Below, in pieces: positions 53,893 to 58,755 of a stretch of 64,000 bases of DNA. The notes under the pieces are model-generated. The model was given only the letters and a program-made list of their open reading frames with translations, did not search any database and had not been told where the DNA came from. Source of the DNA: Burkholderiales bacterium. GTDB lineage: Bacteria; Pseudomonadota; Gammaproteobacteria; Burkholderiales; SG8-39. Numbering within the stretch: the stretch's first letter is position 1; every line of letters starts with the position of its first letter. The stretch covers positions 77,295 through 141,294 of the forward strand of contig JACZJT010000018.1 of the NCBI GenBank assembly GCA_014860445.1. Direction: 5' to 3'. The position numbers and the translations under genes are program-made.

Positions 53893-55194
53893 CTAGCTGG
53901 CGAAGCGGGTAATGAAATCTTCCGGGCTGACGGGCGGCCCCCTGAAATCCGCCTGCATAAAATCGCAGCCGAGTTCAAGAATCCGGGCCGCCTCCGCCTC
54001 ATCCGTAACGCCGATCGCGACGACATCGAATTTTAGCTTGTGGACCAATTCCACCAGGGACCGAAACACGCCTTCGGACTGCGGATGCGCGGCCCAGTCG
54101 TGCGCAATGCGCACGTCGATTTTCAACTCCTGGAACGGCAGGGTCGCAAGCCAGAACAGCGACGAAAGCGGTGCGTCCGAATCGTCCATCGAAAGCTTCA
54201 CGCCGATTTCATTCAGCCGCTTGATCTGTGCCCGCGCCGGCTCATGCGTTTCCAGTATTGCGAGATCCCCGATTTCGAGCATCAGCCTGCCGGGACGCAA
54301 GGACCAGGTGCGCAGCGCGCGCTCGACGAGTTCGGCAATTTCGGGATTCAACAAAGTACGCGCCGGCAGATTGACAGCGACGCGCAAGTCGAGTCCGGCG
54401 CGCTGGCGCAGTTCCGAGCAGTTGCGCAGCGCCCGGTTCAACAGCGAAGAGATCAGCTTGGTGACCATCCCTCCCGCGTCCGCCGCGGCAATGGCTTCGC
54501 GCATCGGTACCAGCGCGCGTTCGCCGTCGTGCCAGCGCAACATGGCTTCAACGCCCATTATCTGCCCGTAACGCAAGTCGAACTGGGGCTGAAACACCAG
54601 TTCCAGCAAGTCGTCTGCAATCGCCGAGCGCAGGCGGCCTTCCTCCACCAGCCGTGAATTTTCCGAATCCTGTGCATGGTCGTAAAAAGCGATATGACCA
54701 TCCTTCCCGGCGGCCGCCGTGCAAGCGCTCTTGGCATGTTGAAGCAGCGGCTCAACACCGTCTGCAGGTGCGGGAAAGATCGCGATCCCGACCGACGGAG
54801 ACGCATAGACTTCCGCTTCGCCCAGCCACAGGGGTGCGCTCATTGTGCGCAACAATTTTTCCGCCGCGAGCTGGGCGAGTTGCGCACTCTCGACCACTGG
54901 AAGCACGCAGGCCAGTTCATCCCGCCCGAGGTCGCCGGTGAAATCGCCCGGTCGCAGCACTTCCGCGCCTATGCCGGCCACCATCCGGGAACGAACGGCG
55001 TCACCGGTCTGATAGCCCCACAGCGCATCGATCCGTCCGATCACTCCGAAATCGGCGAGCAGCAACGCCAGGCTGTGTCCGTCCGCGCGACGTTGTTCGA
55101 CGCAGCCGCGCAGGCGGTCGAGAAATGTAACTTCTTCTCCGCTGACCGGCTCGGTCGAAACCGCACCCGCTTCCGCGGATTTTTCAGCATTCAA
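53893..55194 (-). CDS. Degenerate GGDEF-EAL protein
   Basis: A 433-residue two-domain protein. The GGDEF domain (about 25-180) has GRDEL (90-94) in place of GGDEF, so cyclase activity is doubtful. The EAL domain (about 190-430) has E216-A-M218 for EAL, keeps N275, E307, D337/D338 and K358, but has AIGVT (393-397) where active enzymes have AEGVE, and loop 6 reads DSDAPLSSL rather than DFGTGYSSL. Loss of these residues suggests a c-di-GMP-binding or protein-interaction role rather than hydrolysis. The frame opens with TTG at 55194 overlapping the HD-GYP stop (TTGA); the exact start is uncertain. Last gene of the second-messenger operon. Confidence 0.85.
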   Translation of the reverse strand: MNAEKSAEAGAVSTEPVSGEEVTFLDRLRGCVEQRRADGHSLALLLADFGVIGRIDALWGYQTGDAVRSRMVAGIGAEVLRPGDFTGDLGRDELACVLPVVESAQLAQLAAEKLLRTMSAPLWLGEAEVYASPSVGIAIFPAPADGVEPLLQHAKSACTAAAGKDGHIAFYDHAQDSENSRLVEEGRLRSAIADDLLELVFQPQFDLRYGQIMGVEAMLRWHDGERALVPMREAIAAADAGGMVTKLISSLLNRALRNCSELRQRAGLDLRVAVNLPARTLLNPEIAELVERALRTWSLRPGRLMLEIGDLAILETHEPARAQIKRLNEIGVKLSMDDSDAPLSSLFWLATLPFQELKIDVRIAHDWAAHPQSEGVFRSLVELVHKLKFDVVAIGVTDEAEAARILELGCDFMQADFRGPPVSPEDFITRFAS

Positions 55195-56390
55195 AGGAAG
55201 AGTTCCCTCGGATCGACCTTGACTGCGTCGTATTCCAGCGTGCGGCGTATCCGATAAACCTCATCGGGCGTCGCCTTGGGCTCTTTTGCCAGGTCGAGCA
55301 TCTTATACGGCCGGGTTTCATTACCCTTCGCATCCCTGACCACCATGACACGGGGTTGGAGGCGACGCAGCGGGTTTTGCGCAATCACGATTCCGACTTC
55401 CCCGCTATTCAGCTCGACCGCGCTGCCGACCGGGTAAACCCCGACGCATTGGATGAACTGCTCCACCAGGGCGGGCTGAAACAACTTGCCCCGTCCCTTG
55501 TAGATAACGTTCAGCGCATTCGACGGTGACATGTGCTTGCCCTGCGGCGCTGGCGCAACCAATGTGTCGAACGCGTCCACAATCGCGGCAATCATCCCCG
55601 GCAATGCAATTGCCACACCACGCAGGCCCCGCGGGTATCCGGTGCCGTCGAAATGCTCATGGTGCAACGATGCGAGCCCGGGAAGGTCGTTCGGCAGGCC
55701 TTGCGTCTTGTTCAGGATCTCGACGGAGTGATCGACATGAGACTGATACAAGACGGTTTCCTCCGGCGTGAGGTTCCCCAGCTTTTCGAGCAGTGCGGTC
55801 GGGAGCTTTAGTTTGCCTGCGTCCTGAAGCAGGCCGAGCAGGCTGAGCTGTTCTATGCTCTCGCGCGACAACTGCAGAAAACGGCCGAAGATACTCATCA
55901 TTACCGACACGTGGATCGAGCGATTGAAAGCCTCCCCGCTCTTTTCCTGCAACTGCACCAGCAGGGTAGCCGCGTCCGGATTTCGTACCACGCTTTCGGT
56001 GATATCCGTCGCCGCCTGCTTGACTTTGACGCCGTCGACCGCGTGCCCGACCCGCACATCGCGGCTGATCTGTCGCAAAACCGTCGCGGTTTCCGTTATG
56101 GCGCTGCGGGCCCTCGGCAGTTCCATATCGAGGCTCGCGCTTTCCTTGTACACCGTGGATCCGCGTATGCTGGCCGCAGTGCCGCCCGCGTGTCCCTCGA
56201 CTTCGGACAAATCCTCCTTCTCGGGGTCGACGAAGACATGGCCGCAATATTTCTTCATTGCGTCGATCTGCTTCTGGCTTTTCAGCACAAATCCCTGAAA
56301 TACGAACGGGGTTTCCGTCCACGGCCGGTCAAGCTTCGACACGTACATGCCGAGTTGGAGCTCGTCAACCGAAATCTGCTTTAGTTCCAT
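55191..56390 (-). CDS. DUF3391 - HD-GYP-like protein with altered HD dyad
   Basis: A 399-residue protein with an N-terminal DUF3391 domain (about 1-130; LQLGMYVSKLDRPWTETPFVFQGF) and an HD-GYP domain (about 150-320). The GYP signature HHEHFDGTGYP is intact (243-253), with H160, H218 and H221 retained. The HD dyad itself reads Q189-D190 (LLGLLQDAGK, normally LLHDIGK), which removes one metal ligand. HD-GYP proteins hydrolyse c-di-GMP; activity here is questionable. The ATG at 56390 lies one base after the adenylate cyclase stop, and the gene overlaps the EAL-type gene by four bases. Confidence 0.88.
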   Translation of the reverse strand: MELKQISVDELQLGMYVSKLDRPWTETPFVFQGFVLKSQKQIDAMKKYCGHVFVDPEKEDLSEVEGHAGGTAASIRGSTVYKESASLDMELPRARSAITETATVLRQISRDVRVGHAVDGVKVKQAATDITESVVRNPDAATLLVQLQEKSGEAFNRSIHVSVMMSIFGRFLQLSRESIEQLSLLGLLQDAGKLKLPTALLEKLGNLTPEETVLYQSHVDHSVEILNKTQGLPNDLPGLASLHHEHFDGTGYPRGLRGVAIALPGMIAAIVDAFDTLVAPAPQGKHMSPSNALNVIYKGRGKLFQPALVEQFIQCVGVYPVGSAVELNSGEVGIVIAQNPLRRLQPRVMVVRDAKGNETRPYKMLDLAKEPKATPDEVYRIRRTLEYDAVKVDPRELFL

Positions 56391-56391
56391 A

Positions 56392-58755
56392 TCAATATTT
56401 GCTCTGTACCGACCACACGCCGTCCCAATCCCGCGACGGCGGCGCGCCGCGAAAGATTTCGCAGCGGTCCAAATATATCCGCGACGGACCATCCTGCGGA
56501 TTGGCTGCGAGCGCATCGCGGAAACAGCGGGCCGCAGACATCCAGTCGCGCCCGCGATAACGGCTCAGCCCCTCGTTGAATGCCTCTATCACGGTTTCGC
56601 GATGAGGGAAGGATTCTTCCGTGTGGTGCCCGATCACTTCGTAAATTGCCACTGGTTCTTCCATGCCGCGCACCCGGATCAGATCAATTTCACGCACGTC
56701 CGACTGAACTTTGATCCGCTTGTAGGTGTTGTTGCAGATTAGCACCGAAGTGCCGTAATACTTGTTCGCGTCCTCAAGCCGGTGGGCGATGTTCACGCGA
56801 TTGCCAATCACCGTATATTCTAACCGTTTGGGCGAACCGATGTTTCCCGCCACCACGTCGCCGGTGCTGATGCCGACACCGATCCGGATCTCATCCCGCC
56901 CCCGCGCCGCAAGCCTGTCATTCAACACGCGCAGACCCGCCATCATGTTGCTGCCGACCTTGACCGCATTGTCGGCGTCGTCCGAGTCCTGCAGCACAGA
57001 ACCGAATACCGCCATGATCATGTCGCCCATGTACTTGTCGAGCACCCCGCGGTGGGCGAAAACGATGTCGACCATGTCGGTGAAATACTCGTTGAGCAAT
57101 GCCACCGTTTCCTGCGCGCCCAGCCGCTCCGAAATCGAGGTAAAGCCGCGGATGTCCGAAAACAACACGCTCACCTCGCGATTGATTCCGCCGAGTACGG
57201 TTTCTCCCCTCTCGAGCAGCTGGTCCATCACGCTCTTGCTCATATAGCGCGACAAGGTATTGCGCATGCGCTTCTCGCGGGTGATGTCCTCCATCATCAA
57301 CATGTAACCGATTCGTTCGTCGCTCATGCTCACGAGCGGAACCGTCGTAAGATCGACAGAAACCGCGTTGGCGTCCTCCACGTAAAGGTCCGTATCCACG
57401 GTGATGTCGGTCTTTCCCGCGGAACGCACCTTTTCCAGACTGCTCGCCACCCAGGCATTGCGCCCGACGAAAAGTTCGGCGAGCGAGCGCCCGACGAGTT
57501 CGACCTCGTCCCGGCGCAGTATGCGAACGGCGGCATCATTGACTTTTCGCAGAACGCCGTCCGCATCGAGCGTGAGCACGCCGTTGCTCATGCTGCGCAA
57601 AATCGATTCGTTGTAATTTCGCTCTGCGTTGATTTCCTCGAACAGCTGCGCATTGTGAATCGCTATGGCGGCTTCGGCGCAAAATGCGTGCAGCCGCCGC
57701 TCGTCGGCCGCGTTGAACGTGCCCGCCTTGCGGTTTAGTATCTCCATCACTCCGATGGGACGCGCACCCTTGGCCAGAATGGGCATGCACAGGATGCTGC
57801 TGGTTCGATACCCGGTGCGCCGGTCGATCTCCGGATTGAAACGCGCATCCTGATACGCGTCCAATATGTTGATCACCCTGCCGGAGGTGAAGCATTCACC
57901 GGCAATTCCGGCATTGGACGGAAAGCGGATTTCCGTGCTGTGGATGCCACCCGCGGAGTGTGAATACAGTTCGTTTCGCTTCGGGTCGTGCAGGAACAGC
58001 GCTCCGCGTTCGGAATCCAGAAGCTGGGTCGCCGCAGACAGGATTTTCTCGAGCAAGGGCCCGAGGCGGATTTCGGAGACGATCGAACTGATGACTTCGA
58101 GCAGCATTGCCTCCTCCTGCTGCTGGCGTTCGACTTTTTCGAAGAGGCGCGCATTTTCGAGCGCCGCTGCGGCCTGTTGTGACAGGCCTTCCAGCACGCG
58201 CTGGTCTTCGAGGTCGAAATCCCCGGTGTGCTTGTTCAGCACCTGGGTGACGCCGATCACCTCCTGATTCTTGTTGCGGATGGGGACGCAAAGGATGTTC
58301 CTGGTGCGATAGCCGGTACGACGGTCGACTTCCTGGTTGAAACGTCTGTTGTCGTAAGCATCCGCAGTGATGATCTCGGCTTCCCCCTTGGTGAAAACGG
58401 AACCGGCAATTCCAAGATTGCTCGGGAAGCGGACTTCACCCATCACGTTGCCCTGCATCACCCGTGAGTACAGTTCGCTGGTTTCCGGATCGTACAAAAA
58501 CATGGAACTGCGATCTGCGTTCAGCGTCTGCGTGACCACGCCCATCAACCGTGGAAACAGCACATCGAGCGAGAGACTGTCGGAGACGCGGTTGGCGATG
58601 TCGGTAATAGCGGAAGTGCGCCTCAGCAGTTCCGCCATCTGGTAGAAAAGCTGCGTCGTTTCGGCTTCGCTGCGGCCGTGCAGCAAGCCTTCTATTTCCC
58701 GCATGCTCAGCGGGCGCTCAACCAGGGAGCGTGCGGTCTCAAGATCGAATTGCAT
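56392..58755 (-). CDS. GAF-GAF-PAS class III adenylate cyclase
   Basis: A 787-residue soluble cyclase. GAF1 (about 50-205) and GAF2 (about 220-375) both end with the NKFDE-type motif of cyclic-nucleotide-binding GAFs (N174-K175, F180, D184; N341-R342, F347, D351-E352). A PAS domain (about 385-495) precedes the cyclase domain (about 520-700), which has metal-binding D534 and D578, K574 and T648 at the base-specifying positions (favouring ATP), and N655/R659 in the transition-state pair. A helical, TPR-like C-terminus follows (about 720-770). It heads a tightly coupled operon with HD-GYP and EAL proteins. Likely produces cAMP under allosteric nucleotide control; inference. Confidence 0.92.
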   Translation of the reverse strand: MQFDLETARSLVERPLSMREIEGLLHGRSEAETTQLFYQMAELLRRTSAITDIANRVSDSLSLDVLFPRLMGVVTQTLNADRSSMFLYDPETSELYSRVMQGNVMGEVRFPSNLGIAGSVFTKGEAEIITADAYDNRRFNQEVDRRTGYRTRNILCVPIRNKNQEVIGVTQVLNKHTGDFDLEDQRVLEGLSQQAAAALENARLFEKVERQQQEEAMLLEVISSIVSEIRLGPLLEKILSAATQLLDSERGALFLHDPKRNELYSHSAGGIHSTEIRFPSNAGIAGECFTSGRVINILDAYQDARFNPEIDRRTGYRTSSILCMPILAKGARPIGVMEILNRKAGTFNAADERRLHAFCAEAAIAIHNAQLFEEINAERNYNESILRSMSNGVLTLDADGVLRKVNDAAVRILRRDEVELVGRSLAELFVGRNAWVASSLEKVRSAGKTDITVDTDLYVEDANAVSVDLTTVPLVSMSDERIGYMLMMEDITREKRMRNTLSRYMSKSVMDQLLERGETVLGGINREVSVLFSDIRGFTSISERLGAQETVALLNEYFTDMVDIVFAHRGVLDKYMGDMIMAVFGSVLQDSDDADNAVKVGSNMMAGLRVLNDRLAARGRDEIRIGVGISTGDVVAGNIGSPKRLEYTVIGNRVNIAHRLEDANKYYGTSVLICNNTYKRIKVQSDVREIDLIRVRGMEEPVAIYEVIGHHTEESFPHRETVIEAFNEGLSRYRGRDWMSAARCFRDALAANPQDGPSRIYLDRCEIFRGAPPSRDWDGVWSVQSKY

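Follow-up and report, generated by a model that had tools for sequence, protein, structure and literature searches.

Several described systems each resemble one part of the locus reported here, a run of three genes at positions 53893-58755 of the window, by which we mean a 64,000-nucleotide stretch of contig JACZJT010000018.1 from the 4.6 Mb genome, in 73 contigs, of a Burkholderiales bacterium. The genes encode an adenylate cyclase and two proteins, HD-GYP and GGDEF-EAL, of the types associated with cyclic di-guanosine monophosphate (c-di-GMP) but depleted in catalytic residues. Degenerate receptors of the HD-GYP and of the GGDEF-EAL type have each been described on their own; their combination with a cyclase is one that we have not found described. 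Our favoured, though tentative, reading of the operon is as a junction between cyclic adenosine monophosphate (cAMP) and c-di-GMP, in which an active adenylate cyclase would be wired to a pair of non-catalytic c-di-GMP receptors. Among HD-GYP proteins, DvhD of Desulfovibrio vulgaris has the fold without the HD dyad and is a c-di-GMP receptor, binding its ligand without hydrolysing it and with no metal observed (PMC13090378). Bordetella PdeE, a betaproteobacterial HD-GYP protein, has QD in place of HD; compared by description only, it is a membrane Cache-HD-GYP protein for which the available text mentions no GGDEF-EAL or cyclase partner (PMC12805831). RpfG, in contrast, is an enzymatically active phosphodiesterase, but there the GYP motif has been reported to be critical for binding GGDEF proteins (PMC4159591). 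LapD and FimX have both catalytic motifs degenerate, and LapD binds c-di-GMP via its EAL domain (PMC3032553). NosR of B. pseudomallei is another precedent for one half of the set (PMC12570481). Finally, Bd1971 and Lcd1 bring cAMP and c-di-GMP together within a single module (PMC6717892). Literature searches limited to open-licence papers turned up no account of an adenylate cyclase with a pseudo-HD-GYP/GGDEF-EAL pair, nor is one given in the available part of a review on regulation involving cAMP and c-di-GMP (PMC11139211).

The three genes are co-directional on the minus strand, in the order cyclase, HD-GYP protein, GGDEF-EAL protein. An earlier, sequence-only reading of the locus had described them as coupled, and the coordinates of all three open reading frames (ORFs) agree: the HD-GYP gene begins 1 nt past the cyclase stop and overlaps by 4 nt (TTGA) with the GGDEF-EAL gene, which has a TTG start. 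Pfam finds two GAF domains, PAS and Guanylate_cyc in the cyclase, DUF3391 and HD_5 in the HD-GYP protein (the latter with E 3.4e-28), and GGDEF and EAL in the third protein. Promoter and terminator scans gave no signal above chance level. The features, with the evidence for each, are as follows.

56392..58755, minus strand: GAF-GAF-PAS class III adenylate cyclase, 787 aa, ATG start (ORF, Pfam, signature motifs)
58147..58563, minus strand: GAF-A, limits approximate, with NK..F..DQ at residues 174-185 (Pfam, structure match, motif alignment)
57658..58059, minus strand: GAF-B, residues 233-366, with NR..F..DE at 341-352 (Pfam, structure match, motif alignment)
57283..57609, minus strand: PAS domain, residues 383-491 (Pfam)
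56644..57177, minus strand: class III nucleotide cyclase domain, residues 527-704 (Pfam Guanylate_cyc, structure match, motifs)
55191..56390, minus strand: DUF3391/degenerate HD-GYP protein, 399 aa, ATG start (ORF, Pfam, PmGH alignment)
55824..55826, minus strand: Q189, replacing the HD-dyad histidine, PmGH H221 (PmGH alignment)
55920..55922, minus strand: R157, replacing the metal ligand PmGH H189 (PmGH alignment)
53893..55194, minus strand: degenerate GGDEF-EAL protein, 433 aa, TTG start (ORF, Pfam)
54913..54927, minus strand: GRDEL, replacing GGDEF, residues 90-94 (homologue alignment)
54943..54954, minus strand: RxxD, residues 81-84, spaced as a c-di-GMP I-site (partner alignment)
54013..54015, minus strand: I394, replacing the first AEGVE glutamate (homologue alignment)

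Each half of the pair differs from its nearest described counterpart. DvhD has periplasmic dCache and PAS domains, SQ for HD and no double histidine, whereas the window protein has DUF3391 before its HD-GYP domain, keeps both the double histidine and D222, and has a GGDEF-EAL protein and a cyclase as neighbours. The GGDEF-EAL protein shares with LapD and FimX the degeneracy of both catalytic motifs, but it has no HAMP or further domain detected by Pfam and only about 20 residues before the GGDEF domain, it keeps the EAL glutamate and its partner is a pseudo-HD-GYP protein. Nor are LapD and FimX its nearest solved relatives: the best PDB matches are the GGDEF-EAL modules of PA0575 and MorA, with LapD coming 28th by fold. 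While in Bd1971 and Lcd1 cAMP controls an active c-di-GMP enzyme, in the window the cyclase is a distinct protein and those of c-di-GMP type are short of catalytic residues.

Alignment with PmGH confirms that the HD-GYP protein has lost the histidine of its HD dyad, with Q189 at the position of H221, and reveals a second lost metal ligand, R157 at the position of H189, that the sequence-only reading had missed. Both positions are in the ligand list of PmGH, and the H221A and H189A substitutions each essentially abolished its activity (PMC4159591). The window protein keeps E185, D222, H250, H276, H277 and D305, six of the eight metal-ligand positions, along with K225 and the G, Y and P of the GYP loop. 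It thus has neither the HD dyad nor the full metal-ligand set of an HD-GYP phosphodiesterase and, despite the GYP loop and the six ligand positions, we propose from its sequence that it would be unable to build a full catalytic centre. Its AlphaFold2 model (mean predicted local distance difference test score, pLDDT, 86; predicted template modelling score, pTM, 0.77) has as its best PDB matches Bd1817, PmGH and the c-di-GMP-bound HD-GYP domain of DvhD.

Conservation of these changes was assessed in 102 loci, comprising the window, one further relative, 20 chosen loci from a search of the order and the best 80 of 518 loci from a genome scan. The 20 order loci are mostly best matches. The set represents nearest homologues and is no random sample; two of its members, L088 and L132, come from the same genome. 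By record title, the genome-scan loci are mostly from Betaproteobacteria, Burkholderiales, Rhodocyclales or Sulfuritalea. Of 101 readable loci, 100 have another residue at the H221 position. The exception is L106, a 33% homologue without an EAL neighbour, which keeps HD and is the only one looked at among order-search matches of around 30-36% identity. Where an EAL neighbour is present, the histidine is absent from every readable locus (73/73). The position of H189 is occupied by R in 71 of the 102 loci and by H in 21. In contrast, H250 is kept in all 102, H276 and H277 in 101, and the G, Y and P of the GYP loop in 101, 100 and 99, respectively. Homologues with QD and DUF3391/HD-GYP architecture but without an adjacent GGDEF-EAL gene were also found (L175-L178, L180-L182, L184-L186, L189 and L194-L197); several share other neighbours (clusters c14, c19 and c35), and contig ends truncate some of them.

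In the GGDEF-EAL protein GRDEL stands where the GG(D/E)EF signature would be, and AIGVT replaces AEGVE, so that the GGDEF motif and both AEGVE glutamates are gone, as had been claimed; the EAL glutamate is kept, as EAM. We take the core EAL residues to be E, N, E, D, D, K, E and Q in RocR numbering, in which the first AEGVE glutamate is presumably E352. On that basis the window keeps seven of eight core positions, having lost the first AEGVE glutamate, with further EAL changes in loop 6 (DFGTG) and at another glutamate, E268, which is D. With the AEGVE glutamate absent and loop 6 altered, the residues expected of a core EAL phosphodiesterase are incomplete. The AlphaFold2 model has a mean pLDDT of 86 and, because its pTM is 0.61, the arrangement of the two domains is unsure.

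Of 74 EAL partners, 68 were used for residue counts and for a tree of the pair, six being left out: L088 as a duplicate of L132, L154, L157 and L170 as broken or cut, and L188 and L191 because their HD-GYP gene is cut. The second G of GG(D/E)EF is absent from all 68. The R and D of RxxD are both present in 64, and the D, taken alone, in 68. All eight core EAL residues are kept in 15 partners but not in the other 53, and a cyclase lies in the examined stretch beside none of the former (0/15) as against 18 of the latter (18/53); every cyclase-linked partner scored (18/18) therefore lacks at least one of the eight. The residues lost differ by clade: family f46 lacks D296 (changed to G), loci of the window type lack the AEGVE glutamate, and many of both lack N. 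In the pair tree, a quick search with motif columns excluded, support from the Shimodaira-Hasegawa-like approximate likelihood ratio test only and long outer branches, EAL-intact rows lie outside the f46 clade and the window-family clade; the intact L179 and L183 fall between the two (support 89, on a long branch) and the intact L165 sits within the window-family side. Since the two clades differ in part of the residues lost, at least two separate EAL losses are suggested by these alignments, but the intact and degenerate labels are clustered. In L154, a cyclase-linked relative, the GGDEF-EAL gene (L154:1419-2717) appears as two open frames on the same strand, either a real split or an assembly error.

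The cyclase itself looks intact. Its FSDIR, LDK..GD, TVIG and VN..RL motifs, to which we assign the metal, base-selecting and transition-state roles that we take to be those of class III enzymes, are present throughout the orthologous clade (29/29 rows, including two that repeat a genome), in agreement with the sequence-only reading, and the enzyme is probably an active adenylate cyclase. The same reading spoke of two NKFDE-type GAF domains. That is approximately right, but by the definition of NKFDE assumed here for scoring neither motif is complete, GAF-A having N-K-F-D-Q and GAF-B N-R-F-D-E. The tandem GAF and class III cyclase arrangement recalls CyaB1 and CyaB2, which we understand to be the GAF-tandem adenylate cyclases of Anabaena/Nostoc, and the window protein matches GAF structure 1ykd as well as chains of class III cyclases; it differs from that type in the incomplete NKFDE motifs and the coupling to a c-di-GMP-type pair. 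A GAF cyclase paralogue, 45% identical and unlinked to the pair, is found at G000:C21:38972-41206 and in many genomes of the family.

When the same gene set was sought in other genomes, as the earlier reading had proposed, the linkage was found to recur. The cyclase query gave 22 matches in 20 of 98 family genomes, 20 of which adjoin the pair (three of them on contigs ending inside or just past the HD-GYP gene), and in 399 genomes sampled from the order it added four linked genomes, all of family f46 and all with the cyclase beside the pair. Overall, 24 of the 26 cyclase orthologues found in this way adjoin the pair. Five outparalogues of around 45% identity had neither partner in the stretches, of 15-kb scale, that were examined. 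In the cyclase tree, which also took in two unlinked copies and these five outparalogues and in which two rows repeat a genome, three clades correspond to three layouts: the cyclase upstream (12 rows), downstream and convergent (10) or downstream and co-directional (5). Where the cyclase comes first, 8 of 11 loci show the 1-nt gap. At L089:3459-3797, a short ORF matches cyclase residues 21-148 and is possibly a broken cyclase copy.

The question of whether the residue losses are conserved has a divided answer, then: the HD histidine is lost throughout the readable pairs, while loss of EAL residues varies by lineage. Likewise, homologous operons with intact motifs, which the sequence-only reading had said would reduce these losses to sporadic mutations, exist only in part, since none of the readable pairs keeps the HD histidine but 15 keep the EAL core and AEGVE, none of those being cyclase-linked.

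Identities between the window and G080 are 66% for the cyclase, 49% for the HD-GYP protein and 35% for the GGDEF-EAL protein. Such values raised the suspicion of horizontal recruitment of the cyclase into f46, an idea that was dropped as RpoB identities show no clear discordance: RpoB is 81.3 and 81.7% identical to that of the window in two f46 genomes, 81.0-85.2% in four f1 genomes of convergent type and 74.6-82.7% in four genomes of other families (G013 and G278, with wrong frames, were excluded, and 9 of the 24 genomes had no RpoB match). The case of G018 (L127) is different. Its RpoB is 88.9% identical to that of its genus-mate G440, of convergent type, against 81.7% to the window, whereas its cyclase and HD-GYP protein are 75.7% and 73.1% identical to those of the window against 57.7% and 58.1% for G440. 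Either the unit was transferred or, as may equally be, the contig is misbinned.

The pair itself is widespread in the window's order, as judged from the order search. An EAL partner adjoins the HD-GYP gene in 74 of the 102 loci, including 14 of the 20 order loci, and a contig end cuts short some of the remainder; conversely, all 20 best matches to the EAL gene in relatives have a same-strand HD-GYP gene adjoining. A coupled start with a 4-nt overlap could be used in 52 of 73 pairs. No conserved extra partner is evident among the 102 loci, where the largest other cluster of neighbours has 9 ORFs in 8 loci. Two loci, L153 and L162, lie on contigs of metagenome-assembled genomes that are titled Bordetella parapertussis, yet they group with environmental window-family loci, and their titles may be mislabels.

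All three genes are under purifying selection, as judged from their sequences. The ratio of non-synonymous to synonymous substitution rates (dN/dS) between the window and L118 is 0.069 for the cyclase, 0.067 for the HD-GYP gene and 0.192 for the GGDEF-EAL gene, and against six relatives it ranges over 0.069-0.132, 0.067-0.121 and 0.186-0.227, respectively, some HD-GYP frames carrying a 5' extension. The close pair L161/L162 gives 1.17 for the GGDEF-EAL gene, but at a dS of 0.01 this is little informative. The genome has 9 class III cyclase, 33 cNMP-binding (cyclic nucleoside monophosphate), 10 EAL, 25 GGDEF and 2 PilZ matches, and therefore carries genes for both second messengers. Potential cAMP parts are many in this genome, G000, when the 33 cNMP-binding and 9 class III cyclase matches are set against the 2 for PilZ.

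How might such a set work? The gene neighbourhood and the residue conservation, with DvhD and LapD as precedents, make it plausible that both proteins serve as receptors through which the cyclase is controlled or localised. The pair would then be a two-protein, non-catalytic c-di-GMP sensing unit coupled to a GAF-GAF-PAS adenylate cyclase. Its members may bind each other, as the RpfG HD-GYP domain binds GGDEF proteins via GYP, forming a heteromer in which the GGDEF-EAL protein would contribute its retained RxxD, at I-site spacing, and most of an EAL pocket. Such a complex could bind c-di-GMP without cutting it, in the manner of DvhD and LapD, and binding could alter the complex so that the cyclase is activated, inhibited or positioned.

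Several observations weigh against a junction of this kind. At 81 of the 102 HD-GYP loci there is no cyclase in the examined stretch, although some are cut by contig ends, and the Sulfuritalea and Sulfurisoma pairs without a cyclase have a degenerate EAL domain too; because these loci, EAL-degenerate ones included, lack the cyclase, the pair has a function independent of it. G010, a genome that is 99% complete, carries the pair and no orthologous cyclase. Conversely, the same-clade cyclase copies G001:C110 and G012:C156 are unlinked, and the f46 relative L089 (G233) has only the short cyclase-like ORF beside an intact-looking pair. The absence of cyclases from the 15 EAL-intact loci does not amount to 15 independent observations, as those loci are phylogenetically clustered, and the window itself loses only one of the eight core EAL residues. 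As for ligand binding, RxxD is equally common in ordinary GGDEF domains (9 of 10 GG(D/E)EF motifs in own-genome loci), the window protein has A and G where PmGH has its guanine contacts R314 and K317, and E185 is present in only 28 of the 102 loci.

The chief rival is shared regulation without contact, in which the pair acts on a separate target, such as motility, pili or exopolysaccharide, and the cyclase lies nearby since the same condition calls for both outputs, with no physical or allosteric link. The loci with no cyclase in the examined stretch, and the case of G010, speak for it. On the other hand, a cyclase in the convergent layout cannot share the transcript of the pair, and adjacency is kept there nonetheless; three layouts have been retained, each in its own cyclase clade, and the 1-nt gap recurs in most upstream loci (8/11). 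We consider shared regulation possible but somewhat unlikely, and still prefer the junction, in which our confidence nevertheless falls short of even. A more specific form of the junction is a c-di-GMP-to-cAMP converter, in which the pseudo-HD-GYP and pseudo-GGDEF-EAL proteins would gate the cyclase directly; the ancestral pair would have had a functional EAL domain, whose residues were then lost separately in two cyclase-bearing lineages. We hold this to be unlikely. Control might also run in the opposite direction, with the GAF/PAS cyclase as the sensor and cAMP, or the cyclase itself, switching the pair and so c-di-GMP physiology. The cAMP-gated c-di-GMP enzymes Bd1971 and Lcd1, the latter acting through a GAF domain, are precedents (PMC6717892), and the abundance of cNMP-binding and class III cyclase matches in the genome would fit, but neither protein of the pair has a cNMP-binding or GAF match in Pfam at E up to 0.01, and we regard this direction as improbable.

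Residual or altered catalysis, whether by an HD-GYP domain with a different metal site or by slow EAL cleavage, could instead adjust c-di-GMP beside the cyclase. The window keeps six of eight PmGH ligand positions with K225, and seven of eight core EAL positions; EAL-intact homologous pairs exist (15/68); two of the same ligands are changed in RpfG (PMC4159591); and the FimX EAL domain, which keeps 4 of 10 essential residues, was crystallised with the product pGpG (PMC3527489). However, the changes in RpfG are at E185 and H189 and spare the HD dyad, whose loss in H221A essentially abolished PmGH activity (PMC4159591). The window also lacks the AEGVE glutamate and loop 6, and cyclase-linked f46 loci carry damage elsewhere in the core (D296 to G, N to K), so that we think retained catalysis improbable as well. 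Least likely is that the pair is simply degenerating after losing an enzymatic role. It is true that dN/dS of the GGDEF-EAL gene (0.19) exceeds that of the other two genes, that L161/L162 gives a value above one, if only at dS 0.01, and that the EAL gene of the cyclase-linked L154 is split into two frames. Yet the values across six relatives are low for both genes of the pair, other residues are conserved over distant lineages and the coupled overlap start is possible in most pairs (52/73). Sporadic mutation or recent decay is thus disfavoured, because the losses are conserved and dN/dS is low.

For the families concerned, the analysis marks out many HD-GYP proteins in Betaproteobacteria that lack the HD histidine. 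The keeping of c-di-GMP-type pseudoenzymes beside an adenylate cyclase, in three layouts, suggests a reverse wiring to that of known systems, and the operon offers a compact system for testing by what means two paired pseudoenzymes could control a different second messenger. An enzyme for making cAMP, placed beside two catalytically depleted proteins of c-di-GMP type, suggests that some environmental bacteria may have a built-in link between the two signalling systems.

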